The notes under the pieces are model-generated. The model made no database searches. It saw nothing but the letters and a program-made list of their open reading frames with translations, and was not told where the DNA came from. From Planctomycetota bacterium (lineage in GTDB: Bacteria > Planctomycetota > Planctomycetia > Pirellulales > Pirellulaceae): a stretch of DNA of 64,000 nt. The stretch is taken from positions 1 through 64,000 of the forward strand of contig CAUJHS010000109.1 of NCBI GenBank assembly GCA_963204915.1, given 5' to 3'. The position numbers and the translations under genes are program-made. Below, one piece after another: positions 3,466 through 63,371 of the stretch (positions are counted from its first letter, which is position 1; every line of letters begins with the position of its first letter).

Positions 3466-3825
3466 GACGCACTCCTTTGCCATTGGGAGAAGAGGTGTTT
3501 GTTGCTCGGTGCTTCCTATATGCAGCCCGCGCGCCAATTGTTCGCGCGGCAAGAATTAAATGCCACAAACCCTTTATTCAAAGCAACTTACGAATTTCAA
3601 TAGCAATTTTTTGCCGGCCCCGCCGACGTGAAAATCATGTACAAATTTCAATGGAGTTTGCGGGGCGGCTTGCTACACTTTACGCAGTCATCCTGGTCTT
3701 CCCGGGCGGCAGCCGAAATACGCCCGTTGCTGCCAAAAGTTGACTTGGCCGACGTTCCCGTGTCTACTCGGCACAACCGCTGGTGGTCCATCCTCGCGTT
3801 TCTTCCCTTAACCCTTGTTTCCGTG
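3466..3825. other. Divergent intergenic region between csrA and a secreted dehydrogenase-like gene
   Basis: About 360 bases, locally A/T-rich between about 3540 and 3660. It must hold the csrA promoter on the minus strand and the promoter of the gene at 3826 on the plus strand. An in-frame ATG at 3628 would extend the plus-strand gene by 66 residues, but that stretch does not resemble a signal peptide or any domain. I see no RNA gene or strong hairpin. Confidence 0.4.
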
Positions 3826-5682
3826 ATGGTGCGCTTCGACTTGCTTGTACGCTCAACTCTGATCATGTTCCTGTCGTTGGCTTTGCTGGATCCCGCCGCT
3901 GTCTGCGCTCAGGAAGAACCGCCAGCGCCGATTCCTGCGGCGGAAGCGCCGGGACGCATGACCTTACCCCCCGGGTTCAAAGCGACGTTGTTCGCGGGTG
4001 AGCCCGACGTGGTTCAACCGATCGCCATCGCCTTTGACGACCGAGGCCGCCTGTGGGTGGCCGAATGCCTTTCCTACCCCACCTGGAAAGAGAAAGGGAA
4101 CGATCGAATCGTCGTGTTTGAGGACAAAGACAACGACGGCCAGTTTGACTCGGGCCGCGTGTTCTGGGATCAGGGCAATTACTTAACCGGTTTGGCCGTT
4201 GGCTTTGGGGGCGTGTGGGCGTGCTGTGCTCCGCATCTGCTGTTTATTCCCGATCGCAATGGCGATGACGTTCCCGACGGCGCCCCGGAAGTCGTGCTCG
4301 ATGGCTGGTCGACCCAAGGCGTGCATAATGTGGTCAACGGCCTGATTTGGGGCCCCGACGGCTGGCTCTATGGTTGCAACGGCATCACGTCGCCGTCAAA
4401 AGTGGGAACTCCCAGCACTCCGCCGGAAAAGCGGCAAGATATTGCGTGTGGAATCTGGCGGTATCATCCGGTGCGAAAAATCTTTGAAGCCGCCGCACAC
4501 GGTACAACCAATCCCTGGGGACTCGATTTCGATCAGTATGGGCATGGGTTTTTCACGAACTGCGTGATCAGCCACATGTTTCATTACATGCCCGGCGCCC
4601 ATTACCAGCGCATGTTCGGGCAGGATTACGACCCCTACGTATATGAGTTGATGGAGTCTTGCAGCGATCACTTGCATTGGGGCGGGGGCAACTGGACCGA
4701 CGCCCACGCCGGGCGCGATGGTAACAGCGTTGAAGGCGGCGGGCACGCGCATGCCGGCGCCATGGTCTACCTGGGCGACAACTGGCCTGACAAGTACCGC
4801 AACAACATCTTCATGCACAACATTCACGGCCGTCGCCTCAACCAGGATCGCCTGGTGCGACACCAATCGGGATATACGGGCAAGCATGGCGAAGATTTCC
4901 TCTTTGCCAACGACCCGTGGTTCCGAGGCGTCGCCCTTACTTACGGGCCCGATGGCGGCGTATTTCTGACCGACTGGTGCGACATTGGCGAATGTCACGA
5001 CAACAAAGAAGACGCCATCGAACGGGCCAACGGACGAATTCATAAGATCGTGTACGGCGAGGCGCCCAAGCTCGAACCGTTTGATTTAGCAAAGTTGGAC
5101 GACGCCGCGCTGGTGGAATTGATCGCACATAAGAACGAATGGTATGTGCGGCGGGCTCGGCGATTGCTTCAAGAGCGTGCAGCTCGCGACGGCGGCGCCT
5201 CGGCCGAAGTCATCGCCCGCTTGCAGCAAATGTTTGAGCAAGCGCCGGAAACTCCTGGAAAATTGCGAGCCTTGTTTACGCTCCACGCCATCGACGCGCT
5301 GCCCGAGGAAAAACTCTTGCCCCTTTTGGTCCATCAAGATGAATACTTACGGGCTTGGGCCGTGCGCCTGCTGACCGACTACCGCGACGCTTCACCCGAA
5401 GCGTTGGCGTCGCTGGCCGACGCCGCCGCGCGAGACGAGTCGGGTCTGGTGCGGCTGGAGCTTGCCGCGGCTTTGCAGCGCGTGCCCGACGACGCCCTGC
5501 GCAGCATTGCCGCCGGTTTGGTTACGCACGCCGAAGACGCCGAAGACAGCAATTTACAACTGATGATTTGGTACGGCGTTGAACCGCTCGCCCAAAACAC
5601 GCTTCAGGCGACGCGGCTACTGGCGCAGTGCAAACTGCCCATCGTGCGCCGGCACCTCGCGCGCCGGATTGCGGCCCAGTAG
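3826..5682 (+). CDS. Secreted PVC-type dehydrogenase-like protein (beta-propeller plus HEAT), lacking a cytochrome c domain
   Basis: 618 residues from the ATG at 3826. That start gives a classical signal peptide with basic residues, the core MFLSLALLD and an AVCAQ cleavage site. Residues about 40-420 form a sorbosone/glucose-dehydrogenase-like propeller of the planctomycete membrane-bound dehydrogenase type, recognisable by LPPGFKATLFAGEPDVVQP, AFDDRGRLWVAEC, VNGLIWGPDGWLYG and YGPDGGVFLTDWCD. Residues about 440-600 are alpha-helical HEAT-like repeats. Proteins of this group usually continue into a C-terminal cytochrome c domain with CxxCH; here the frame stops at RRIAAQ just after the HEAT part and no CxxCH exists. 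Substrate and electron acceptor are unknown. It lies upstream of the secreted phosphodiesterase gene with a 46-base gap. Confidence 0.85.
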   Translation: MVRFDLLVRSTLIMFLSLALLDPAAVCAQEEPPAPIPAAEAPGRMTLPPGFKATLFAGEPDVVQPIAIAFDDRGRLWVAECLSYPTWKEKGNDRIVVFEDKDNDGQFDSGRVFWDQGNYLTGLAVGFGGVWACCAPHLLFIPDRNGDDVPDGAPEVVLDGWSTQGVHNVVNGLIWGPDGWLYGCNGITSPSKVGTPSTPPEKRQDIACGIWRYHPVRKIFEAAAHGTTNPWGLDFDQYGHGFFTNCVISHMFHYMPGAHYQRMFGQDYDPYVYELMESCSDHLHWGGGNWTDAHAGRDGNSVEGGGHAHAGAMVYLGDNWPDKYRNNIFMHNIHGRRLNQDRLVRHQSGYTGKHGEDFLFANDPWFRGVALTYGPDGGVFLTDWCDIGECHDNKEDAIERANGRIHKIVYGEAPKLEPFDLAKLDDAALVELIAHKNEWYVRRARRLLQERAARDGGASAEVIARLQQMFEQAPETPGKLRALFTLHAIDALPEEKLLPLLVHQDEYLRAWAVRLLTDYRDASPEALASLADAAARDESGLVRLELAAALQRVPDDALRSIAAGLVTHAEDAEDSNLQLMIWYGVEPLAQNTLQATRLLAQCKLPIVRRHLARRIAAQ

Positions 5683-5728
5683 CCATTCGGAGACTTGCGC
5701 CACCTTCGCGTGAAAGCCTTTGGATCCC

Positions 5729-6550
5729 ATGCACGCTGAATTCAAAAGCGATCGAATTTGCCTCATCATTTGCCAGGCGTTTGCGTTGCTGGCGATTTTC
5801 GCCGCTTCAACGAACGCCGCGAAGCCGCTGCGCGTGCGTGTGTTGAGCTACAACATCCATCATGCGGAAGGCGTCGATGGCAAGCTCGATTTGGAGCGTA
5901 TCGCTCAGACGATCCGCAAAGCGCAGCCCGATCTTGTCGCCCTGCAGGAAGTGGACGATAAGACCGAACGCGTGCATGGCATGGATCAGCCCAACGAACT
6001 GGCTCGGCTGACGGACATGCAGGTAGTGTTTGGTCGTAATCTTGAATTGCAGGGCGGCGGTTACGGCAATGCCGTGCTGTCGCGCTGGCCAATCCTGCGG
6101 CAGAACAACCACGCTTTGCCTTCGCTCGAGAACGGCGAACCGCGCGGCGTGCTGGTGGTCGAGGTGCAACCGCCGGAGCTTACCACACCGCTCGTACTGT
6201 TCGCTACGCATCTCGATCACCGCCCGCGTGACGAAGAACGGTTCGTCTCGATTCGCACCATTAACGACCTTGCTGGCAAACAGCCGTCGGCCTGGGCGAT
6301 CCTGGCGGGCGATTTGAACGCCACACCCGAGACGCGCGTGTTGCAAGCGGCGCGCGAGTTTTGGGCTATGCCGCAAGGGCAAGAATGGCCCACGATTCCT
6401 GTGGCGAAGCCCCAACGGCAGATTGATTACGTCTTGGCGCGTCCCGCCGAGCATTGGAAGTTCGTGGAAACGCGCGTGCTTGAGGAATCGATCGCTTCGG
6501 ATCATCGGCCGATACTGACGGTCCTGGAGTTGAACCGCCCGAGCAATTAG
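5729..6550 (+). CDS. Secreted endonuclease/exonuclease/phosphatase (EEP) family protein
   Basis: 273 residues beginning with a signal peptide (ICLIICQAFALLAIFAAS, cleavage after TNAA). The mature part carries the EEP fold motifs in order: VLSYNIHHAEG, the metal-binding QEVD (LVALQEVDDK), GNAVLSRWPI, LFATHLDHR, LAGDLNATPET and the terminal catalytic SDHRPI. These place it in the metal-dependent phosphodiesterase superfamily that includes nucleases, sphingomyelinases and inositol phosphatases. The substrate cannot be told from sequence; export argues for an extracellular or periplasmic phosphodiester. The ATG at 5729 is preferred over an in-frame TTG three codons earlier. No strong ribosome site is visible. 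Confidence 0.88.
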   Translation: MHAEFKSDRICLIICQAFALLAIFAASTNAAKPLRVRVLSYNIHHAEGVDGKLDLERIAQTIRKAQPDLVALQEVDDKTERVHGMDQPNELARLTDMQVVFGRNLELQGGGYGNAVLSRWPILRQNNHALPSLENGEPRGVLVVEVQPPELTTPLVLFATHLDHRPRDEERFVSIRTINDLAGKQPSAWAILAGDLNATPETRVLQAAREFWAMPQGQEWPTIPVAKPQRQIDYVLARPAEHWKFVETRVLEESIASDHRPILTVLELNRPSN

Positions 6551-6660
6551 CCTGGACGAGCCAACCCTTACGAACCTCGGTCGCCGCGGGACACTCGCCC
6601 GAAGTTCCGCGGCGAATTCGTCATACCGCTCCTCTCGGAAACAAAGCAGGCGAGAAGTCG

Positions 6661-8082
6661 ATGAAACGTTTCTCATGCGTCCATTTCGTCCGATCCATCG
6701 GTCTGGCCGTCCTGGCCGTTGTGACGGGTTGGGCAGAAATGGCGTCGGCGAACGAAAACACACGGCCCAACATCGTGCTGATCGTAGCCGACGATCTGGG
6801 ATACCGCGACTTGGGCTGCTATGGCTCGAAGGAAGCCAAAACGCCCCACTTGGACCGTCTGGCGCAACAGGGGGTGCGGCTGACCAACTTTTATGTCGCC
6901 TGGCCGGCGTGTACTCCGTCGCGCGCGAGTTTGCTCACCGGGAGGTATCCGCAGCGAAACGGCGTGTCGGACATGATTCGCAATGACATGGTCAATTACG
7001 GTCATCGCTACACCCCAGCCGAGTACGCCGTTTCGCCCGAAATGATTCTCGGGGCCGACTTGCGCGAAGTGTTTCTCTCAGAGGTGCTCCAACAAAGCGG
7101 TTATCGGTGCGGTTGTTTCGGCAAATGGGACTCAGGACAACTCCGCCGTTTTCTCCCTTTGCAGCAAGGTTTCGATGAATTCTACGGTTTCGCGAATACG
7201 GGAATCGATTACTTCACCCACGAGCGGTACGGCGTTCCCTCGATGCGGCGCGGCAACGAATTGACGACCGAAGACCAGGGAACGTACGCCACATACTTGT
7301 TTCAGCGCGAAGCCGAGCGATTCTTACGCAGGCGCGATGACCGCCCATTCTTTTTGTATTTGCCGTTTAACGCTCCGCACGGCTCCTCAAGCCTTGAGCC
7401 TGAGGTGAGCGGAACCGTGCAGGCGCCCGAAGAATATCTTGCGATGTTTCCTCCCGGAGAGACCAAGGCTGCTCGTCGGCGACAAGGCTACCTGGCCGCC
7501 ACGGCCTGCATGGACGACGCCATTGGCAAACTGATGCAACTGCTGCAAGAGCGAGAACTTGTGGAGAACACGCTCGTCATTTTCCTGTCGGACAATGGGG
7601 GCGGAGGCGGTTCCGATAATCGTCCGCTCCGCGGCGCCAAAGCGCAAGTGTTCGAGGGAGGCGTGCGCGTGCCCTGCCTGATGCGGTGGCCCGGTCGCAT
7701 TCCCGGCGACCAGGTGAGCGACGCATTTCTGACCGCACTCGAGGTTTTTCCCACCGTGTTGGCCGCAACGAGAATCGAACCACCTGCCGGAGTAACGCTC
7801 GACGGTTTCGACATGTTGCCGGTGTTGCAAGATGCCGAAAAGTCACCTCGCGAAGAAATGTTCTGGAAGCGCCGCGAGGATCGCGCCGCACGGATGGGCC
7901 AATGGAAATGGGTCGATAGCAGTCGCGGCAAGGGGCTGTTCGATCTCGCCGCCGATCCCGGCGAAAAACAGGACTTATCCAGTGCGCGGCCAGACGTACT
8001 GGAACAAGTCCAAGCACGTTACGCCGCCTGGGAAAAAGCGATGGAAGAGGCCGAGCCGCGCGGGCCGTTTCGGGATTTCTGA
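6661..8082 (+). CDS. Secreted sulfatase (formylglycine type, C-T-P-S-R)
   Basis: 473 residues. A signal peptide (about residues 1-31) precedes NIVLIVADDLGYRDLG, whose DD pair binds Ca2+. The formylglycine site is Cys84 in CTPSRASLLTGRYP, matching the C-x-P-S-R pattern converted by formylglycine-generating enzyme. Further sulfatase landmarks are GKWDSGQL, PFFLYLPFNAPHGS and the second metal motif FLSDNGGGGGS. Such enzymes hydrolyse sulfate esters, in Planctomycetes typically those of algal polysaccharides. The C-terminal subdomain ends in the usual GLFDLAADPGEKQDLS segment. It is convergent with the HtrA gene, with a strong hairpin between them. No polysaccharide lyase or glycoside hydrolase lies beside it, so the substrate is open. 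Confidence 0.95.
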   Translation: MKRFSCVHFVRSIGLAVLAVVTGWAEMASANENTRPNIVLIVADDLGYRDLGCYGSKEAKTPHLDRLAQQGVRLTNFYVAWPACTPSRASLLTGRYPQRNGVSDMIRNDMVNYGHRYTPAEYAVSPEMILGADLREVFLSEVLQQSGYRCGCFGKWDSGQLRRFLPLQQGFDEFYGFANTGIDYFTHERYGVPSMRRGNELTTEDQGTYATYLFQREAERFLRRRDDRPFFLYLPFNAPHGSSSLEPEVSGTVQAPEEYLAMFPPGETKAARRRQGYLAATACMDDAIGKLMQLLQERELVENTLVIFLSDNGGGGGSDNRPLRGAKAQVFEGGVRVPCLMRWPGRIPGDQVSDAFLTALEVFPTVLAATRIEPPAGVTLDGFDMLPVLQDAEKSPREEMFWKRREDRAARMGQWKWVDSSRGKGLFDLAADPGEKQDLSSARPDVLEQVQARYAAWEKAMEEAEPRGPFRDF

Positions 8083-8219: not shown

Positions 8220-9359
<1,140 letters not shown>

Positions 9360-9438
9360 GAAGTTGTCGCCTGAGGAAAGAACTGCGCAGGGCGCTACTC
9401 AACAAATAGAACGCACATTCCTCCAGAATACCCCATTT

Positions 9439-9891
9439 TTAGGATACGTCCATCTCGATGTCGCTAAACCGGGTTTTCGTATCACGGGACGAGGAATCCT
9501 CGACGCGTCGCCAGTCGGCATGACGATGCGGTAGGGCGCCGCCGTTTTGCTCCATCTCTTGTTGACAGTGAATGCACATCACCGCGTACGGTAGGGCTTG
9601 CAGCCGCGCGAGCGGAATCGAACCACCGCATCCCTCGCATTTTCCGTAAGTCCCCTGGCGCATGCGTTCTAACGCGTTTTCAATGTGCGCGAGTTCCCGG
9701 CTCTCGACTTCGGCCAGTTGCGAGGTGATTTCACCGTGTGCCGAGTCCAAAGCGGCGTCAACCACGTCACCGGCGCTTTGCTCGCGCAGGTTGTTTAAAC
9801 CGCTAAGATCCCCCGCCAAGGCTTTGCGCAGCGCGTCACGGCGTTTGATGAGAACTTCTCGCATTTTTGCAGCAGCATCTTTGCGCGCCAT
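9439..9891 (-). CDS. DksA/TraR-type zinc finger protein
   Basis: 150 residues. An N-terminal coiled-coil helix pair (about 5-78) is followed by the zinc finger C85-x2-C88 ... C106-x2-C109 in the context YGKCEGCGGSIPLARLQALP. This is the layout of DksA/TraR proteins, which enter the RNA polymerase secondary channel and, with or without ppGpp, alter promoter output. The tip motif DxxDxA of true DksA is not clear, although the helix-turn region contains DVVDAALDSA (about 42-51), which resembles it. A GAGGGG ribosome site lies 8-13 bases before the ATG. A 40-residue polar tail follows the finger. I call the family confidently, its effect on transcription less so. Confidence 0.88.
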   Translation of the reverse strand: MARKDAAAKMREVLIKRRDALRKALAGDLSGLNNLREQSAGDVVDAALDSAHGEITSQLAEVESRELAHIENALERMRQGTYGKCEGCGGSIPLARLQALPYAVMCIHCQQEMEQNGGALPHRHADWRRVEDSSSRDTKTRFSDIEMDVS

Positions 9892-10458
9892 GATATTTCC
9901 CCTCTCGGTGCGTATCGCGAGATCAACGCCGGTTCCATCTCGCGAGGAAGGGTTACCTCGTCTTCCAAGTTCCGTTTTGCCCTGTTCGTCGTCGGTCTGC
10001 GGCCATCACAGGGCGATTAAATACACAGGCTTGTTCGATTTCTGGCATCTCCAGATAGAACTATAGGGCGCTCAGAGATTTTTGTGCGATTCAGGCACAA
10101 AAATCGTTTTTGTCGTTCCGACTGCCAACCTAGGATCGTCCGAACTAAAGGATGCGACACCACTTACGACGGATGAACGCAAGAGGGGGAGCCACACCAC
10201 CCGCCGACAACACGGCTGCGCCGTACTAGGACACTTCGTCCCTCGTCGTCCGCGAACTCTGCTTTGAGCGCCTGAGGTCGCTAGATCGGTCATTCACTTT
10301 GTATTTGCCAGTCGTTTTTCCAAATTCGCTGTTCGGTCTCGGCCGCGGTAAGGCGGTAAAGATGCGGCCTGTGGTGAATTTTTGACCCATCGCATGCCGT
10401 GACGTAAATCTAAGCAGTAGTCGCGCACTCCCCGCCTATCCCCCGCCTTGGTGTATCG
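9892..10458. other. 567-base divergent intergenic region with a palindrome
   Basis: The region between the DksA/TraR gene (-) and the FHA/coiled-coil gene (+). The only structure I can point to is the perfect inverted repeat at 10077-10105, described separately. No open frame in it resembles a protein. It is long enough to hold promoters for both flanking genes and possibly a small RNA. Confidence 0.4.
10077..10105. repeat. Perfect 11-base inverted repeat
   Basis: GATTTTTGTGC (10077-10087), a 7-base loop GATTCAG, then GCACAAAAATC (10095-10105), followed by GTTTTTG. The A/T-rich flanks of the stem give a terminator-like outline on both strands, yet it lies between divergent genes where no terminator is needed. 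It could end an unrecognised small transcript or act as an operator. Confidence 0.6.
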
Positions 10459-21112: not shown

Positions 21113-23365
21113 TTATACCGCCTGCGTTTGCGCCATGTCCTGCTGCGCCTGATGCAACCGCAGGTAGAGCTTCGAACTGGCCAAGAGTTCGTCGTGCGAG
21201 CCAATCTCGGCGATCTTTCCATTCTCCAAGACGACCAAGCGATCAGCCCGACGCAGCGTGCTCAGGCGATGCGCGATCGCAATCGTTGTCCGGCCGCGCG
21301 TAAGATTTTCTAGGGCGAGTTGAATTTCACGCTCGGTCTCGGTATCGACCGATGAGGTCGCTTCATCGAGAATCAAAATCTTGGGATCAATCAATAAGGC
21401 GCGGGCAATGCTGATGCGTTGGCGTTCGCCTCCTGAGAGCAATTGACCGCGTTCGCCCACGAGCGAGTCATATCCTTCGGGAAGTCGAAGGATGAATTCA
21501 TGAGCCCGCGCGGCGCGGGCGGCGGCGATGACCTCTTCCCGCGTGGCATGCGGGCGGCCATAGGCGATGTTTTCGGCCACGGTGCCGTAAAACAGAAACG
21601 GCTCTTGAAGGACGAGCCCGATATGGCGACGGTAATCGGCCACCGCGAGCCGGCGAATGTCGATGCCGTCGACGAGGACGACGCCTTCGTCGACGTCGTA
21701 AAAGCGGCACACCAAATTCACAAGCGTTGATTTTCCACCACCGCTTTGCCCCACCAGTCCAATCATTTCGCCGGGTTCGATGGCAAGGTTAACATCGTTG
21801 ATGACCAAACGATGGCCATAACGGAACTTCACGCCGCGCAACTCGATACGGCCTGTGACTTTTTCCAAAGGAACCGGATTTACCGGATCGGCGGCCTTGG
21901 GCTTCTCATCCAACACTTCAAACAATCGATGCGCACTGGCGGCGGCGCGCTGTACGGCGGCCATCATTCGGCTCATCGAGTCGAGCCGGCCGTAAAACCG
22001 AGTGATATATGCGACAAAAGCGGTCAACACGCCTACGGTTAAGCGTTCCGAGAAAATGCCCCAAACGCCAAACGCCCAAACGATTAACAAACCGAAGTCG
22101 GTCAGCAGAGTGACCATGGGCCCAAAGAACGACCAGGTGCGGTTCACGCGATCGTTGGCCGTGAGAATATGTTCATTCGCCACGCGAAATCGCTCGACTT
22201 CCCGATGTTCTTGGGCAAAGGCTTTGACCACGCGAATGCCGGGAATCGTGTCGGCCAACACGCTGGTCATCGCGCCCCAGGCCCGGCTACTGCCGGCAAA
22301 CGCGCCCCGCAGGTTTTGTCGAACCTGATGCACCAGCCAGGCAATCAGGGGCAACGGCCCCAACGTGACCAGCGCTAACCACGGATCAATGCTGATTAAA
22401 ATGATCGACGTCATTACGATCATCAGCAGGTCGCTGGCAAAGTCGATCAAATGGACGGAGAGAAAATAGCATATGCGGTCGGTATCGGTGCCCACCCGGG
22501 AGATTAAATCACCGGTCCGCTTTCTGCCGAAGAACTCCAGAGATAATCGGTGGAGATGAACGTACGTCTGATTGCGTAAGTCAGCACTGATGCGTTCACT
22601 GGCCCACGCCAACACCCACGTGCGCGCCCACCCAAGTAGCCAAGCCAACACCGCGGCGCCCGCGAGACCGCCAAGATACCAGAAGGCCAAGGACATGTGG
22701 ACCGATTCGCCGTTCTGGTAGGGAATCAGCACCTTATCCAAAAGAGGCATGGTCAGGTACGGCGGCACCAAGCCCGCCGCAGTACTGGCCATGGCCAAGA
22801 ATAAGCCTGCCAGGATCACTTTGTACCGGGGACTCGCAAAACGAATCAGTCGGTAAAGCGACTTTCGATCCCCTGGCGTCGTGTCTTCGCCTGAGACAGG
22901 TTCTTCCAGTGCATCGTCATCGTCAAACTGCTCCCCTTGGGGCGCCGGTTTGAATTCGCTTTGGTCTACCGTTTGCAACTGCTGATGCTGCTCAAGGAAA
23001 CGGTGCGCATCCTCCTTTTGAGCACTGGTAAAGCGCCACCGGTAGAGCCAGCCTGACGGACCTTCGAGTTGAAGCGTTCCTGTACCAATGCCTTCAAGGA
23101 TTGACAAACTGAGCGATGGATCGAGCTGCCAGGAACGGCGCGTCACGCCGGCGTTCTGTGCGGCGCCCCCATCGACGTTTTGGCCGGGTTCGATTCCAAT
23201 AATGCGTTGTGTGGTCAAAGCCGCCACACGAATCGAATACCGCATTTCGGCGGTTAAGTCGGCCGTAAACCATGCGCAAACGGTTTCACCGGGCGCAAGC
23301 ATGGTTTCCACCTCATGCCGCATCTGGGCGAGATCAGGGCCGAGTCCTTCGGTCGATGGTCGCAA
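21113..23365 (-). CDS. ABC transporter permease-ATPase, cyanophycin-associated
   Basis: 750 residues, half-transporter of the exporter (type IV) fold. Residues about 15-130 form a soluble domain resembling a bacterial PH-like fold (MRYSIRVAALTTQRIIGIEP). Six membrane helices span about 183-465 and the nucleotide-binding domain about 505-740, fully canonical: Walker A GQSGGGKST (539-547), Q-loop VLQEPFLF, signature LLSGGERQR (642-650), Walker B ILILDEATSSVD (663-674) and H-loop IAIAHRL. The start is TTG at 23365 with GAGGG just upstream; an ATG at 23323 is the alternative. Divergence from cphA by about 200 bases and coupling to DUF1854 suggest it moves a cyanophycin precursor, product or an associated compound. 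The substrate is not known. Confidence 0.9.
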   Translation of the reverse strand: MRPSTEGLGPDLAQMRHEVETMLAPGETVCAWFTADLTAEMRYSIRVAALTTQRIIGIEPGQNVDGGAAQNAGVTRRSWQLDPSLSLSILEGIGTGTLQLEGPSGWLYRWRFTSAQKEDAHRFLEQHQQLQTVDQSEFKPAPQGEQFDDDDALEEPVSGEDTTPGDRKSLYRLIRFASPRYKVILAGLFLAMASTAAGLVPPYLTMPLLDKVLIPYQNGESVHMSLAFWYLGGLAGAAVLAWLLGWARTWVLAWASERISADLRNQTYVHLHRLSLEFFGRKRTGDLISRVGTDTDRICYFLSVHLIDFASDLLMIVMTSIILISIDPWLALVTLGPLPLIAWLVHQVRQNLRGAFAGSSRAWGAMTSVLADTIPGIRVVKAFAQEHREVERFRVANEHILTANDRVNRTWSFFGPMVTLLTDFGLLIVWAFGVWGIFSERLTVGVLTAFVAYITRFYGRLDSMSRMMAAVQRAAASAHRLFEVLDEKPKAADPVNPVPLEKVTGRIELRGVKFRYGHRLVINDVNLAIEPGEMIGLVGQSGGGKSTLVNLVCRFYDVDEGVVLVDGIDIRRLAVADYRRHIGLVLQEPFLFYGTVAENIAYGRPHATREEVIAAARAARAHEFILRLPEGYDSLVGERGQLLSGGERQRISIARALLIDPKILILDEATSSVDTETEREIQLALENLTRGRTTIAIAHRLSTLRRADRLVVLENGKIAEIGSHDELLASSKLYLRLHQAQQDMAQTQAV

Positions 23366-57113: not shown

Positions 57114-58013
57114 GTGCAGTGGCTTAACTATCATCATCTGCTTTACTTTTGGGTTGTCGCGCGTGAGGGCAGCATCGCACGCGCCTGTGAAAAGCTGCAT
57201 CTCGCGCAACCGACCATCAGTGCGCAACTTTCACGACTGGAACGGTCGCTCGGAGAAAAGCTGTTCCGCCGCGAGGGGCGTAATTTGGTTCTGACCGACG
57301 CAGGACAACTGGTTTATTCCTACGCAGAGGAAATCTTTGCGCTGGGGCAGGAACTGACCGGGTCTCTCAAAGGCATGGCGCGGAATCGTCCGTTGCCGTT
57401 TCATGTGGGGGTTGCGGAAGTCCTACCCAAGTTGATTGCGTACCGGCTTTTGCAGGCCGCACTCCGCATACCCCAGCGAGTTCACATGGTGTGCCGTGAA
57501 GAACGCCCGGAGCAGCTTCTGGGTGATTTGGCGGTCCACCGGCTCGATGTGGTGTTAAGCGACGCGCCGGCGAACCCTTCGTCGCACGTGCGGGTGTTCA
57601 ATCATCTCTTGGGCCAATGCGGCGTTACCTTTTTCGCCGCTCCTGCATTGGCGCGGGAACGAAAGAAGGGATTTCCCAACTCGCTCGATGGAGCGCCATT
57701 TCTCATGCCCACGGCGCACGCCGCGTTGCGTCGTAATTTGGAACTATGGTTTGAGTCAAAAGAGATTCAGCCGGTCATTTGCGCCGAGTTCGAAGATAGC
57801 GCTCTTCTGAAGATTTTTGGCAAAGCAGGAGAGGGTATCTTCGCAGCTCCTTCGGTTGTTGCAGCCGAAATTGAGCAACAATACGGAGTCGAGGCGCTGG
57901 GTAGCTCTGAGGAGTTAATCGAACGGTTTTACGCCATTTCTGTGGATCGCAAGTTGCGGCATCCGGCCGTTATTGCGATTTCCGAAGCAGCGCGCCATTC
58001 GATTTTCGCCTGA
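57114..58013 (+). CDS. LysR family transcriptional regulator, NhaR-like
   Basis: 299 residues, GTG start. The winged helix-turn-helix covers about 3-62 (LNYHHLLYFWVVAREGSIAR, LHLAQPTISAQLSRLERSLG); the YHHLLYFW wording and the following RARNRPLPFHVGV-like segment (ARNRPLPFHVGVAEVLPKL) match the NhaR branch of LysR regulators. The ligand-binding domain occupies about 90-295. NhaR controls sodium/proton antiporter and related genes in enterobacteria; no antiporter is adjacent here. It is convergent with the TolC-like gene, with only 8 bases between. Confidence 0.93.
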   Translation: MQWLNYHHLLYFWVVAREGSIARACEKLHLAQPTISAQLSRLERSLGEKLFRREGRNLVLTDAGQLVYSYAEEIFALGQELTGSLKGMARNRPLPFHVGVAEVLPKLIAYRLLQAALRIPQRVHMVCREERPEQLLGDLAVHRLDVVLSDAPANPSSHVRVFNHLLGQCGVTFFAAPALARERKKGFPNSLDGAPFLMPTAHAALRRNLELWFESKEIQPVICAEFEDSALLKIFGKAGEGIFAAPSVVAAEIEQQYGVEALGSSEELIERFYAISVDRKLRHPAVIAISEAARHSIFA

Positions 58014-58021
58014 CGGAAGCG

Positions 58022-59704
58022 CTACCGTTGCGTTTGCGGAGGTAGCGCCAAAGCAGCGCGATAGTCGGCCAAAGCGTAAAAGAAGTCGGCCTGCGCGGCG
58101 ATGAGCGTTAACTGGGCGTCCGCAACCGCTTGTTCGTAAAGGTTCAACATCATCACGTCGATGTCGCCCGCGTCAAACGCCGCCATACCCAGGGTTCGCG
58201 ATTGTTGGGCAAGTTCGAGAAACGTTCGGGCTCGTTCGGCCCGCTGTGACGCCGTGACTAAGGCTGAGTACGCATCCTGCACTTCGCTCACGATTTTGTT
58301 TTCGTAGTAAACGCGTTTCGCAGCGATTTGTGCGATCTTCGCCTCGGCGGCTCGAATCTTCCCTTGGGCCTCACGGCGCTGAAGCGGCACTTCGCCGTAC
58401 AACCCCGCTTCAAGCTCAAGCGGCGTTTTGTCCCCCTTCGAACTCGTTTTTCCGCCAACGTCTTTGGAGCTTTCGAGTCGGGCTTCGACCTTCGGCAAGA
58501 GTAGGTTGCGCGATTGCGCCAGCTCGACCGCCGTTTGTTCTCGGAGAAAGTCCAATTCACGCAATTCAGGCCGCGAGGCTAACGCCGCCATGATATCACG
58601 ATCAACAAATTGTTGATCTGGCGCAAACTCGGTGGGAAACTCACGAGGTAAGCGTGACGACGGCGGGATAATTGGTTCGCCGGTTGGCGTCCGCAAAAAC
58701 AACGAGAGTTTGATTGCCGCAGCTTGTAACTTGCGTTCGGCTTCGATTAACTTCGTTTCGCGCGTGGCGATGAGTTGCTGATTGGTGATGCTGGCGATTT
58801 GCTCTAAGTCGCCCGCTTGAATACGAGTTGCGATTTGCTCGACGCGGTCTTCGCCTAAGCGTAGTAAATCACGCTGCAGTTCGACAACTTGCCCTGAGGC
58901 GACCCAGGTCCAATAAGTTTGCGAGGCGATTCGAACGAAATCCAGATTCTGCGTTTGCACGCGTGGCGCAACTCCATCGCGCGCCAGAGCGCTTTGTTGT
59001 ACCGCCGCCCGACGTTTATCAATCACACGATCCTGCAAAAGCGGCGCGGCCAACCCCACCTTGAATTCGCCGCCTTCGTCGGTTTCTCGTTCTCCGTACC
59101 AGACGGGAAAGTCGCCATCGCCAATGCGATAACCACCGTAGGCGTACCCGCCGCGCCATAAGGGTTGTGACAGCGACAAACCATTTCGGTAGTTCTCGTA
59201 GAAGCCGAGCGGCTGTGCGATGCCATACGCTTGCACGGTAAGATCAAAATCGCCCCAAGCTGCAAGGTTTTTTCCGGCCGCGATGTCATAGTCTCGCCAG
59301 GCAGCGGCCAGCAGCGGGTAGCTTTGTTGCACCGACTGCAACACTTCCGATAGTGTCAGCGGCGGCGGGAGAGGTTGCGCAGGTGGGGTCGGAAGCTCCT
59401 CCGCTTCCGCTGCAGGAGGCGTCAATTCGGGCAAATCCTCGGAGAACCCAACTAGCCGCACATCCGGACGAGCACTCGTTACCAATGGCAGTGCTACAGC
59501 TCGAACGTCGGGCAAGCGTTGCATTGCGGCTAACGACAACGGCGATGCCACCGCGAAGTCAGAAGGCGACATCGGCGCCTTCGCGACCACCGGCGTCGGC
59601 GTCGGCGTCCGATCGATTAAAGGTATTGGTTTTCGCGCCGAGCAACCCACGATGACGTGGAATGCGCCGGCGACGCAAACAATACCTAGGACTGTGCGAT
59701 TCAT
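58022..59704 (-). CDS. TolC-family outer-membrane efflux lipoprotein
   Basis: 560 residues. A lipobox VIVGC (Cys21) precedes a Pro/Thr-rich linker (about 25-120). The outer-membrane factor fold then shows its internal duplication: SLSQPLWRGGYAYGG in the first half and a long helical second half (YYENKIVSEVQDAYSALVTA, RARTFLELAQQSRTLGMAAF). Such trimers form the outer channel of tripartite exporters. Its start overlaps the end of the membrane fusion protein gene by 4 bases (ATGA), so the pair is translationally coupled. It is the last gene of the operon ABC - fusion protein - outer-membrane factor, read on the minus strand. Confidence 0.88.
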   Translation of the reverse strand: MNRTVLGIVCVAGAFHVIVGCSARKPIPLIDRTPTPTPVVAKAPMSPSDFAVASPLSLAAMQRLPDVRAVALPLVTSARPDVRLVGFSEDLPELTPPAAEAEELPTPPAQPLPPPLTLSEVLQSVQQSYPLLAAAWRDYDIAAGKNLAAWGDFDLTVQAYGIAQPLGFYENYRNGLSLSQPLWRGGYAYGGYRIGDGDFPVWYGERETDEGGEFKVGLAAPLLQDRVIDKRRAAVQQSALARDGVAPRVQTQNLDFVRIASQTYWTWVASGQVVELQRDLLRLGEDRVEQIATRIQAGDLEQIASITNQQLIATRETKLIEAERKLQAAAIKLSLFLRTPTGEPIIPPSSRLPREFPTEFAPDQQFVDRDIMAALASRPELRELDFLREQTAVELAQSRNLLLPKVEARLESSKDVGGKTSSKGDKTPLELEAGLYGEVPLQRREAQGKIRAAEAKIAQIAAKRVYYENKIVSEVQDAYSALVTASQRAERARTFLELAQQSRTLGMAAFDAGDIDVMMLNLYEQAVADAQLTLIAAQADFFYALADYRAALALPPQTQR

Positions 59705-61077
59705 TTCGGAAGCTTTACCTTCGACTTGTCATCCTTGCCGCCGGACGATTTGTCCGTCGAGTCTGGCTCATCTTCCGCCACCACGGGTGGGAAACCATTG
59801 ATCTGCCGCCAAATTTCGTATCCCAAGGTGACCTGTTGCAGCATGACCCAACCATTCGCGCGCACGCCCTGGCGCAAAAACCGCTCCGCGGGCCATGCAT
59901 CTCTCGAGGCCGGCTTGATCAGGATGCGAAATTTCCCTTGTCCATTATCGGAAGCGTCTATTGACGTAACTTCTCCTCCGAAGGTTCCTACCGCGACAGA
60001 CGGCCAACCCGCGAACTGAATCGCGGGCCATCCCTCAAATTGTAAGCGGACATGATCGCCTGGCCGCACGAGCGGTGCATCGTTGCCTGACAGCCAAAGT
60101 TCGACCGCAGGTTCGCCGGCATCGGGCACCAACGTAAACAGGGGATCGCCTTCTTTCACCGCTTGTCCTCGTTCGTAAACGGGCATGCGAAAGATCGTGC
60201 CGTCCCGCGGCGCTTGAATAACCAAACGAGCAAGCTCGGAAAGTTTGATCTCGACGTCGCGCATTTCTTTTTGGTTGGTCGCTTGTTGGCCCAGTGCATC
60301 TTGCTCCATCGCACGGGCATAGTCGACTTTGGTCTGCGCTTCGCGACGTTTTTGTTCGAGTTCCTGTTCCTTTGCCTTAACCTCCTTTTCGGCGGCCACC
60401 ACTTCACGTCGGGCTGACTCGAGTTCCGCCTTGGCGACATCCCAGTCTTTTTTATTTTTTTCGACCTCGAGTTCCGACTTAATGCCTTTCTCCGACAACC
60501 CGCGCTGACGTTCATAATTCAAGCGTGCTTGCCATTCTTTAGCCTCATAGCCGGGAACCGCCTCTTGCTTTGCCAGGCGTTTCGCTTCGGCGGCGTCAAG
60601 TAACTCTTGCGCGGCTTGAACGGCGAAATCGCGCGCCGCGGCAAAGTCCACAACGTTTTGTGCGTAAACCTCGGCTTTTATCCGGGCGGTTTCCTGTTTG
60701 ATCTTGACATCATTCAGTTGCGCTCGCAGCTGTTCGGCCAGGTCCGCGGCCTGAGGTCGAATTTCAAGGATGACCTGGCCCTGTTCGACGCGCGAACCTT
60801 CTACCACGCCTTCGGCGACTTCCGCCACCACTCCTTTAACAGGAGATGTAATCGTTTGTTGCCGCTCCTGCGGCACGTACGCCACCACTCGGCCGGTTCC
60901 CCGCGCCGACTGCTGCCAAGGAGCAAACGTCATCGCGACAATGGCTAACAACAAGAGCCCAAGGAGGATCTTGGCCACAAGTTGCGCACGATAGGACGAC
61001 TGCACTAACTTGAGCGCAGGTAGCTGCGAACGCCGCATTGACCAATGCGATGGCAGCCCAACTTGGTGGGTCGTCAT
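59701..61077 (-). CDS. Membrane fusion protein, HlyD type
   Basis: 458 residues. One membrane segment (about 38-55, ILLGLLLLAIVAMTFAPW) is followed by the split lipoyl domain (TGRVVAYVPQERQQTITSPV, PVKGVVAEVAEGVVEGSRVE), then a long coiled coil (about 110-260, with EKNKKDWDVAKAELESARRE and a Lys/Glu heptad run) and a beta-barrel part (RDGTIFRMPVYERGQAVKEG). HlyD-type proteins bridge the inner-membrane transporter and the TolC channel. AAGGA lies 9 bases before the ATG at 61077; a TTG ten codons upstream is less likely. It lies 20 bases after the ABC gene and overlaps the TolC-like gene. Confidence 0.92.
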   Translation of the reverse strand: MTTHQVGLPSHWSMRRSQLPALKLVQSSYRAQLVAKILLGLLLLAIVAMTFAPWQQSARGTGRVVAYVPQERQQTITSPVKGVVAEVAEGVVEGSRVEQGQVILEIRPQAADLAEQLRAQLNDVKIKQETARIKAEVYAQNVVDFAAARDFAVQAAQELLDAAEAKRLAKQEAVPGYEAKEWQARLNYERQRGLSEKGIKSELEVEKNKKDWDVAKAELESARREVVAAEKEVKAKEQELEQKRREAQTKVDYARAMEQDALGQQATNQKEMRDVEIKLSELARLVIQAPRDGTIFRMPVYERGQAVKEGDPLFTLVPDAGEPAVELWLSGNDAPLVRPGDHVRLQFEGWPAIQFAGWPSVAVGTFGGEVTSIDASDNGQGKFRILIKPASRDAWPAERFLRQGVRANGWVMLQQVTLGYEIWRQINGFPPVVAEDEPDSTDKSSGGKDDKSKVKLPK

Positions 61078-61097
61078 ACAACAACGTTCCTTGTGAA

Positions 61098-63371
61098 TTA
61101 TCGGCAATCGGAAACGGCAATTTCGTTAAAATCGTCAGAATCGAACCCTTCGGACGACACCGACGCCTTGGCGCCGTGGGCTGCAGCAGGTTTTAGCCGG
61201 ATCACGCGTCGGCACCGATTGCTCAATCGTTGCCGTCCGGTCACGAGTACTAACGTCCAAGGGGCGCTTGTTTCCGCGATCCGTTCGAGCACGCGATCCT
61301 GAAGTTCATCGGACAGGCAGTCGAGAAGCCCGTCGATCAGCAACAACCGCGGTCGAGCGACGATCGCTCGCGCCAGCATTAATCGCGCCGCCTGACTCGA
61401 CGAAAGCGGCGCGCCTCCATGGGCCAACTCGGTATTCAGGCCACCCGGAAAACGTAGGACTTCATCGAGCAAGTCGACCATCTCCAACGCGTCGCGCACG
61501 TCGCGGGAATTGACCTGGGAACGATGCAAATGCACGTTTTCACCAATCGTTCCGGGAAAAATCTCGATGGCCCGCGCCACGCCTAAGTGTTCGCGCAGGG
61601 AATCGGGACGGATTTCACGCAGGTCGATCCCGTCAAGTTCGATGTGGCCATGAGACGGCGCTCGCACACCGCAAATCAGATCGATCATCGTGCTCTTCCC
61701 GGCGCCCGCGGGACCTGTGACCGCGACGCGGTCGCCCGAGGGAACCGCAAGATCCAGTCCCTCGAACCCGATGTTTCCGCAGGGATAGTGATACGAAACG
61801 CCGCGTAGCACGAGCGATGCGGCGCCAACGTCGCGCAGGTGGAACAATTTGTCCTGCGGTTCGGGCGTCAGGTCGAACAAATGCCCTAGTTTGTCCATTG
61901 CGGCCGCGAGGTCGTAGTACGACTCCAGATGCTTTCCCATCTTGGCGAACGAACCCACGATGACCATGACGATCAACTCGGACGCCACGAGTTGCCCCAG
62001 AGTCAACTGGCCTTGAATGACCAACCACCCCCCCAGGCCCAGTAGCGCGGTCGATGCGATGGCTTGCAGGCTCAAGGCGTAAATCAACTGCCGAAGAAGA
62101 ATTCGAAAGTGCAGCCGCCGAGCTTCCAAATAGTCCATCGTCAGTCGATCGGCTCGATCCAGGGCGAACCCTAGTCCCCCGTTGAGCTTAAATGCGGAAA
62201 CGTGCTGCGAAACCTCTTGGAGCCACGAAGCGACAGCATACTTGGAACGCGATTCCTGAATCGACGTACGCACGGCGCCCCGGCCCAAAACGAAAACCAC
62301 AAAACCCACGAAGCAAAGCAAAAACAGATCGAATCCCAGCAGGAAGGGGTGATAAAACGCAAGCACGATCATGCCAATGGCGGTTTGCAACACAAGATTG
62401 ACGCCATCAAGCAGAAGCGTGGAGGTCGCCTTCTGCACCGTCACGATGTCGAAAAAACGATTGACGAGTTCAGGACCGTGCCGGTTGTCAAGTTGCTCTC
62501 TTTGCATCCGCGGAAGTCGATACGCTAGATCTTCAACCGTGCGAACAAAGAGGCGGCGCTGGAGTATTTCTACAACGTAGGTGGCTAATACGCGAATTGC
62601 CGCCGAGAACGCTAGAAAGGTAAACAGCAAGATCGCCAGCACCACCACCGGCTGAACGTATCTTCCGAAAGCCACAGTGTTTACTAATGCTTCGACCGCA
62701 ATCGGCGTGGCGAGCGCCAGGGTGCCAACGACGATCGAAAACACAAGGACTGCCGTCAAATCCCGGCGTTCAATCAGGATTTGCTTCCATAGCCGTGATA
62801 CTGGCGAAATGTCGTGATGATGGTGAGATGAGTGACCATGAGGCGCCGAGACGTTCTGGTCGTGTTCAAGCGGTTCCGTTTGCGATTGCGGCAAAGCCGC
62901 CTGAGCAAAAATCCATGGCGCCGTCGACTTATTGGTTGCCAATCCGAGTAAATGGCGAACCTGGCGAAATGTTCGGCGTTGCTGGACGCCGGACTTCGTG
63001 TCGTGCACCTCGATTTTTCGCCCCTTCGCGCGCGTGAACACCCACCACCGCCAACCGGTTTCCGGGTCGTTCCCCCAGGCAGCGACGGGAAGACCTTGCC
63101 TAAGAACCGTCAAAACTTCGTCAAACCGGCACTCAATCCTCCGCACGCGCAGCCCTACGCTGTCTCCCACTTCGACCAGTCGTCGGGCCCAACCTTCCGC
63201 GTCGTCACCACCGGTCGCGTCCAGCGATTCGTTAAGGACCTGGCGCGCCGTCATCCGTTCAAACCGTACTACTGATGCGTTGGCAAGTACTTCCAACACC
63301 TGAACGGCTTCGGTCAACCGATCCACGCTCATCGGATCAGGCGTAGCAGGGATTAGCGGATTCGATTCCAT
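61098..63371 (-). CDS. ABC transporter with degenerate nucleotide-binding domain and C39-like N-terminus
   Basis: 757 residues. Residues about 20-160 resemble a peptidase-C39-like domain without the catalytic Cys and His (WGNDPETGWRWWVFTRAKGRK), then a His-rich linker (178-186). Membrane helices span about 208-475 and the nucleotide-binding domain about 515-730. Walker A is intact (GPAGAGKST, 553-561). The Q-loop Gln is Arg600, the signature reads LSSSQ (656-660), Walker B ends LLLID then Gly681 instead of Glu, and the H-switch is Gly712 (VTGRQ). So ATP may bind but hydrolysis in this half is unlikely. First gene of the operon with fusion protein and TolC-like protein. ATG at 63371 preferred over TTG at 63419. 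Confidence 0.88.
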   Translation of the reverse strand: MESNPLIPATPDPMSVDRLTEAVQVLEVLANASVVRFERMTARQVLNESLDATGGDDAEGWARRLVEVGDSVGLRVRRIECRFDEVLTVLRQGLPVAAWGNDPETGWRWWVFTRAKGRKIEVHDTKSGVQQRRTFRQVRHLLGLATNKSTAPWIFAQAALPQSQTEPLEHDQNVSAPHGHSSHHHHDISPVSRLWKQILIERRDLTAVLVFSIVVGTLALATPIAVEALVNTVAFGRYVQPVVVLAILLFTFLAFSAAIRVLATYVVEILQRRLFVRTVEDLAYRLPRMQREQLDNRHGPELVNRFFDIVTVQKATSTLLLDGVNLVLQTAIGMIVLAFYHPFLLGFDLFLLCFVGFVVFVLGRGAVRTSIQESRSKYAVASWLQEVSQHVSAFKLNGGLGFALDRADRLTMDYLEARRLHFRILLRQLIYALSLQAIASTALLGLGGWLVIQGQLTLGQLVASELIVMVIVGSFAKMGKHLESYYDLAAAMDKLGHLFDLTPEPQDKLFHLRDVGAASLVLRGVSYHYPCGNIGFEGLDLAVPSGDRVAVTGPAGAGKSTMIDLICGVRAPSHGHIELDGIDLREIRPDSLREHLGVARAIEIFPGTIGENVHLHRSQVNSRDVRDALEMVDLLDEVLRFPGGLNTELAHGGAPLSSSQAARLMLARAIVARPRLLLIDGLLDCLSDELQDRVLERIAETSAPWTLVLVTGRQRLSNRCRRVIRLKPAAAHGAKASVSSEGFDSDDFNEIAVSDCR

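Follow-up and report, generated by a model that had tools for sequence, protein, structure and literature searches.

The window, a stretch of 64,000 nucleotides from a planctomycete of the family Pirellulaceae (contig CAUJHS010000109.1, positions 1 to 64,000), carries three genes in a row on the minus strand, which encode an ABC protein, then a HlyD-type adaptor, then a TolC-type channel. The first (61098-63371), assigned from its ORF and from Pfam, NCBIfam, AlphaFold2 and Foldseek, encodes a pseudo-ATPase ABC exporter half-transporter of 757 aa with the domain order CLD, transmembrane domain (TMD) and nucleotide-binding domain (NBD). The coordinates fit the ORF exactly when it is read from its ATG; with a TTG start it would reach 63419. 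The gene of the HlyD-type periplasmic adaptor (59701-61107) has a TTG start that overlaps the ABC stop and an alternative ATG at 61077, and it shares a 4-base overlap with the gene of the TolC-family outer-membrane channel (58022-59704). Both were recognized by ORF, Pfam and NCBIfam, and the initial annotation of the ABC gene was right in placing it in an operon with a fusion protein and a TolC-like channel. Upstream of the ABC gene there is a divergent polA-like gene and no exporter. On the other side, a NhaR-type LysR regulator gene on the plus strand (57114-58013) adjoins the operon.

Pfam matched the ABC protein with PF00664 in the TMD (residues ~190-500; 61872-62804), which is its most conserved part, and with PF00005 in the degenerate NBD (residues ~515-730; 61182-61829). 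The N-terminal domain (62898-63314), placed by alignment, AlphaFold2 and Foldseek, is the least conserved part, with 20% mean pairwise identity. A C39 peptidase gave no Pfam match at E 0.001, and the active C39 domain typical of PCAT peptidase exporters was not found. An AlphaFold2 model made from six sequences had a mean pLDDT of 66 and a pTM of 0.40, with most of the NBD and CLD at 75-89 and the TMD at ~60. The top Foldseek matches to this model were HlyB (8dck/7sgr) and PCAT1, over more than 700 columns that include the N-terminal domain/CLD; the overall TM-score was low because of poor domain packing. The order CLD (or peptidase), TMD and NBD of the HlyB/LssB type is thus predicted by Pfam and Foldseek, with a low-confidence TMD model and a modelled domain packing that is unusable. 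The best NCBIfam match was TIGR03375 (LssB) at 190.3 bits, compared with a cut-off of 693.1, and no curated T1SS subfamily cut-off was reached among the matches listed.

The Walker A motif of the window protein, GPAGAGKST (residues 553-561; 61689-61715), is intact. The other motifs of the NBD are changed. Arg600 (61572-61574) stands where the Q-loop has its Gln, and this loop has one residue fewer than in intact exporters. The signature LSGGQ is replaced by LSSSQ (residues 656-660; 61392-61406), and the Walker B region D680-G681-L-L-D684 (61320-61334) keeps Asp680 with Gly681 in place of the catalytic Glu. The D-loop Asp position is Ser687, and at the H-switch position the His is gone and Gly712 (61236-61238) is found. 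Motif alignment therefore bore out all the losses that the initial annotation had listed (Arg600, LSSSQ, Gly681 and Gly712), along with the retained Walker A. The cyanophycin-associated ABC exporter of the same window (21113-23365), which had been used as an internal control, is a sound one, its own motifs and those of 13 orthologues in relatives all being intact. Eight other exporters from the same and related genomes also have all motifs, except one with Asp for the catalytic Glu.

This protein belongs to a family, for which 166 members were collected from Pirellulales, other Planctomycetia and further Planctomycetota. Orthologues are found in 28 of 60 genomes (that of the window included), in 158 of 397 sampled Pirellulales genomes (131 of 254 among those of good quality), and in 43 of 392 genomes from a phylum-wide sample that takes in other classes as well as further Planctomycetia. 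The listed members score at least 600 bits against the family profile, and the best other exporters in the scanned genomes reach at most 174 bits and align to it at TM5-TM6 and the NBD only. In a TMD tree the family forms a single, fully supported clade distant from intact exporters, its rooting being unsure on account of long branches.

Motif loss is common to the whole family. Among the 165 members that could be scored, none has all five motifs (Walker A, signature, Walker B Asp, Glu and His); the majority show one or two of them, and two members have four. The Walker B Asp is kept in 152/165, the switch His in 13/165, the catalytic Glu in 6/165 and an LSGG[QE]-type signature in 3/165. Close homologues with intact motifs, which the initial annotation had named as the finding that would speak against its reading, did not appear in this alignment. 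Its implied retention of Walker A holds for the window protein and for 90/165 members, but is not the rule, as the motif is lost in 75/165. The Walker A Lys has changed ~18 times along the tree, which argues that ATP binding is dispensable and was given up independently in many lineages. The six members with a catalytic Glu (L048, L056, L185, L194, L218 and L262) are nested within the dead family where they could be placed and are possible partial reversions. One of them (L048) has Walker A and the switch His as well, and another (L218) has LSGGQ. In some lineages, Glu- or His-bearing members might hydrolyse ATP.

Asp684 is another conserved feature of this region, present in 162/166 members and replaced by Ser in all intact exporters compared. 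Together with the Walker B Asp680 kept in 152/165 members, it could be taken as a sign of residual or altered ATP chemistry, with a residue such as Asp684 replacing the catalytic Glu in a slow hydrolysis. However, Asp684 persists in members that have no Walker A at all, and the signature has been lost along with the Q-loop and the switch His, so that we consider such chemistry very improbable. Unusual chemistry was one of three options offered by the initial annotation, and the repeated loss of Walker A itself makes it unlikely. Pairing with an active half, the second option, is weakened by the genomic evidence given below, and a conduit that is gated or driven in some other way fits best.

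The genes show the marks of selection. For close pairs of members, dN/dS (NG86, with some synonymous distances saturated) ranges from 0.03 to 0.19 for the NBD and is mostly under 0.07 for the TMD; a close pair lacking a recognisable Walker A still has an NBD value of 0.08 (NG86). Mean identity in the family is 53% for the TMD and 37% for the NBD, the opposite order to that of the intact cyanophycin-associated exporter (58% and 75%). Such a pattern is expected when the transport path is retained and the NBD, no longer catalytic, is under relaxed constraint. A decaying gene or a sequencing artefact would explain the lost motifs, and nothing else was found in its favour. It is refuted by the open frames, the conserved operon, the low dN/dS and the carriage of the gene by ~40% of Pirellulales genomes (158/397), which leave it a negligible probability.

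The operon is conserved with the gene. At 40 of 45 loci the ABC, HlyD and TolC genes share a strand, as expected for the HlyB/LssB type, and at 43 the ABC and HlyD genes do so; three of the five loci without the complete set finish near a contig edge. No second half-transporter occurs in the operon at any of the 45 loci. Three of them have an additional NBD gene, in each case several kilobases off and outside the operon. A paralogous half that would complete one consensus site, as in heterodimeric exporters, was found neither in the operon at these loci nor, as a close paralogue, in the scanned genomes. At the loci compared, no conserved candidate substrate gene adjoins the operon.

These data bear on the idea of a heteromer in trans, where the pseudo half would pair with an active exporter encoded elsewhere, or join a mixed assembly beside it. 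The active unit would then supply ATP hydrolysis and the pseudo unit the HlyD/TolC dock, for example in a HlyB-like complex of three dimers and six HlyD. An active partner is the norm for degenerate halves (PMC7756269), the HlyB-HlyD assembly with its three HlyB dimers and six HlyD has room for structural dimers (PMC11026475), and several intact exporter genes are present in the genome of the window. Against this, the operon has no partner half at the 45 loci, the three other NBD genes being kilobases away, and the scanned genomes have no close paralogue, the next best match scoring at most 174 bits. Two intact exporters compared by co-occurrence do not track the pseudo-ABC gene. Close orthologues of the PCAT exporter of the same genome (C113), which comes with a HlyD of its own, are present in only 2 others of the 60 genomes, both without pseudo-ABC, and the cyanophycin-associated ABC is found in 14/60 genomes with partial overlap and does not track it. 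A direct heterodimer would also spoil both sites, with a degenerate signature in one and a degenerate Walker B and His in the other, which sets it apart from the known pairs in which one site is degenerate (PMC7756269). A distant, universal exporter, such as a relative of MsbA, could still act as the partner in trans. Altogether we regard a heteromer in trans as unlikely.

Alternatively, the dead NBDs might act as the gate of a passive HlyD/TolC conduit, or as ligand sensors, within a regulated pore, sensor or signalling complex that carries out no active transport. Walker A in 90/165 members could permit binding of ATP or another ligand without hydrolysis, much as in CFTR-like gating, and the NhaR-type regulator is a recurrent neighbour. 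The 75/165 members without Walker A argue against nucleotide gating as the shared function, and the complete tripartite set speaks for transport. A purely passive or signalling role is thus rather improbable, though not to the degree of residual ATP chemistry.

The NhaR-type LysR gene was identified by a profile match and by its recurrence beside the operon. It adjoins the operon in the window and at L075, L080, L083, L087, L091 and L164, loci from distant families, with two copies at L087. The copies in the window and at L080 pass the NhaR cut-off, and those at L164 and L087 are slightly under it. It is a possible regulator of the operon, and from its inferred function perhaps an ion-responsive one. 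A small S30AE/hibernation-factor-like gene also recurs near the operon (L072, L075, L080, L087, L091 and L033), often adjoining the NhaR gene; the assignment comes from a weak Pfam match, slightly under the cut-off for the L080 copy. A MarR/ArsR-like winged-helix gene is repeatedly found beside the operon as well (L080, L081, L085 and L091).

Two carboxylates in the membrane domain distinguish the family from other exporters. Glu268, at the cytoplasmic end of TM2 (codon 62568-62570), is Glu in 166/166 members, and the position is Thr or Ala in intact exporters. Glu465 in TM6 (LTLGQLVASELIV; codon 61977-61979) is Glu in 149/166 members, and intact exporters have Leu, Val or Tyr. Members without Glu465 more often have hydrolysis residues. 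In raw counts that represent few lineages, the catalytic Glu is present in 4/16 members without Glu465 and in 2/149 with it (Fisher p 0.0008), and the switch His in 11/16 and 2/148, respectively (Fisher p 8e-12). Three of the five origins of the catalytic Glu fall within the 10% of members that lack Glu465 (~0.008 by a simple binomial, post hoc). A tree-aware independent-pairs test of Glu465 against the catalytic Glu has two supported pairs only and cannot reach significance. A trade-off between Glu465 and the catalytic Glu and His is therefore a suggestive, post hoc hint.

Energy sources other than ATP have been reported for related proteins. LmrA without its NBD has been described as a proton-coupled transporter that needs a TM6 Glu for the step driven by the pH gradient (PMC2704374), and the proton motive force has been reported to act at an early stage of HlyA secretion (PMC5018854). 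HlyB altered at the switch His alone (H662A) does not secrete (PMC5018854), so that in the pseudo-ABC family active export would either have been lost or be powered in another way. The second possibility is the more likely one, given that all three components are conserved together. By analogy with LmrA, the power may come from an ion gradient that acts on the TMD, with Glu465 as a candidate coupling residue; we place this combination somewhat below an even chance. What weighs against it is that LmrA pumps small molecules, and that the export of proteins by an ion-coupled ABC TMD is unproven.

We suggest that the pseudo-ABC protein would be the inner-membrane component of a three-part exporter, ABC-HlyD-TolC, with the layout of a type I secretion system. 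Its ABC subunit, most likely homodimeric, would have turned into a true pseudo-ATPase, and we infer both the lack of ATPase activity and the direction of export. The TMDs and CLD would gate the substrate and keep HlyD in place; the NBD would be a structural module for dimerisation and docking on the coupling helices that hydrolyses no ATP. The drive would be an ion gradient on the TMD, coupled through Glu465, as reported for LmrA without its NBD. A conserved exporter or conduit that is independent of ATP, taken as a whole, is probable. The more specific form, a homodimeric type-I-like exporter with scaffold NBDs and with ion coupling as the favoured drive, is marginally probable. That a natural ABC exporter family has switched to export driven by an ion gradient, with NBDs as scaffolds and the TM6 Glu as coupling site, is a tentative proposal that we judge on balance unlikely to hold in full.

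ABC exporters are defined by ATP-driven transport. The family resembles type I secretion proteins (HlyB, LssB and PCAT1) in the order CLD-TMD-NBD and in an operon with a HlyD adaptor and a TolC channel. In contrast to the HlyB-HlyD-TolC type, its hydrolysis motifs are degenerate except for Walker A and the Walker B Asp, its TMD is more conserved than its NBD, and it falls far under the TIGR03375 cut-off. An ATP-hydrolysing NBD is a defining feature of ATP-driven type I exporters, and as judged from its sequences (0/165 full motif sets) the family is not one of them. It forms a conserved branch of the type-I-like exporters, made up of pseudo-ATPases, whose mode of working resembles that of a gate in a tripartite export pore; we found no established name for it. 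A type I exporter that works without hydrolysing ATP has no direct precedent known to us. A missing catalytic Glu and an altered signature are also hallmarks of the degenerate sites of TM287/288, TmrAB, TAP and BmrCD. In these exporters one consensus site remains and the partner half is a paralogue, and to our knowledge all known degenerate ABC exporters retain one working site; the search for a partner of the pseudo-ABC protein found none, and a homodimer would have two dead sites. The open-access literature yielded no description of this family, or of any homodimeric ABC exporter with two dead sites, which is weak evidence.

A TM6 glutamate matters for coupling in LmrA-MD (PMC2704374), a TMD dimer of an ABC exporter able to run ion-coupled without ATP. 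LmrA-MD was made by truncating a multidrug pump driven by ATP, whereas the pseudo-ABC proteins occur naturally as a conserved family and have HlyD and TolC as partners. The likeness, seen in residues alone (E465 and E268), would be one of working and not of membership. If the sole ABC subunit is unable to hydrolyse ATP, the capabilities of the TMD/HlyD/TolC path become separable from the contribution of ATP hydrolysis, and the family offers a natural system for testing a long-standing question, namely whether ion gradients can power ABC TMDs. Annotations as 'ABC transporter ATP-binding protein' in planctomycetes can also conceal non-ATPases.

The SecA-HlyD-M50 loci of planctomycetes (Kamneva 2015, PMC4452313) are comparable in that they have HlyD, are secretion-like and lack a working ABC ATPase, in the same phylum. 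They contain SecA and no ABC protein, whereas the pseudo-ABC operon has the ABC protein, and no SecA_DEAD protein is encoded in the operon of the window. A secondary SecA was considered as a motor; SecA2 is present in 58/60 relatives, which provides no contrast and is uninformative. This second, shorter SecA_DEAD protein, in 58/60 genomes of the order, is far more general than that study had suggested (PMC4452313).

Giant proteins were considered as substrates. LEPR-XLL giant proteins were rejected, as their presence does not track pseudo-ABC, and the RTX-repeat giants of the genome are present but unlinked to the operon. The latter are giant ORFs of 8447, 5909, 3681 and 3978 aa (C31, C85, C61 and C35, respectively; genome G000) and are candidate type I substrates. 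At L070, an intact PCAT-type exporter with its own HlyD (3682-7387) lies near an ORF (9290-10000) whose N-terminus has a LEALESRQLLAG motif similar to the LEPR-XLL signal of planctomycete giant proteins. In some genomes the pseudo-ABC gene is present as two divergent copies, as in G050 (L044/L067), G049 (L054/L068) and the isolate HKST-UBA69 (L032/L033).
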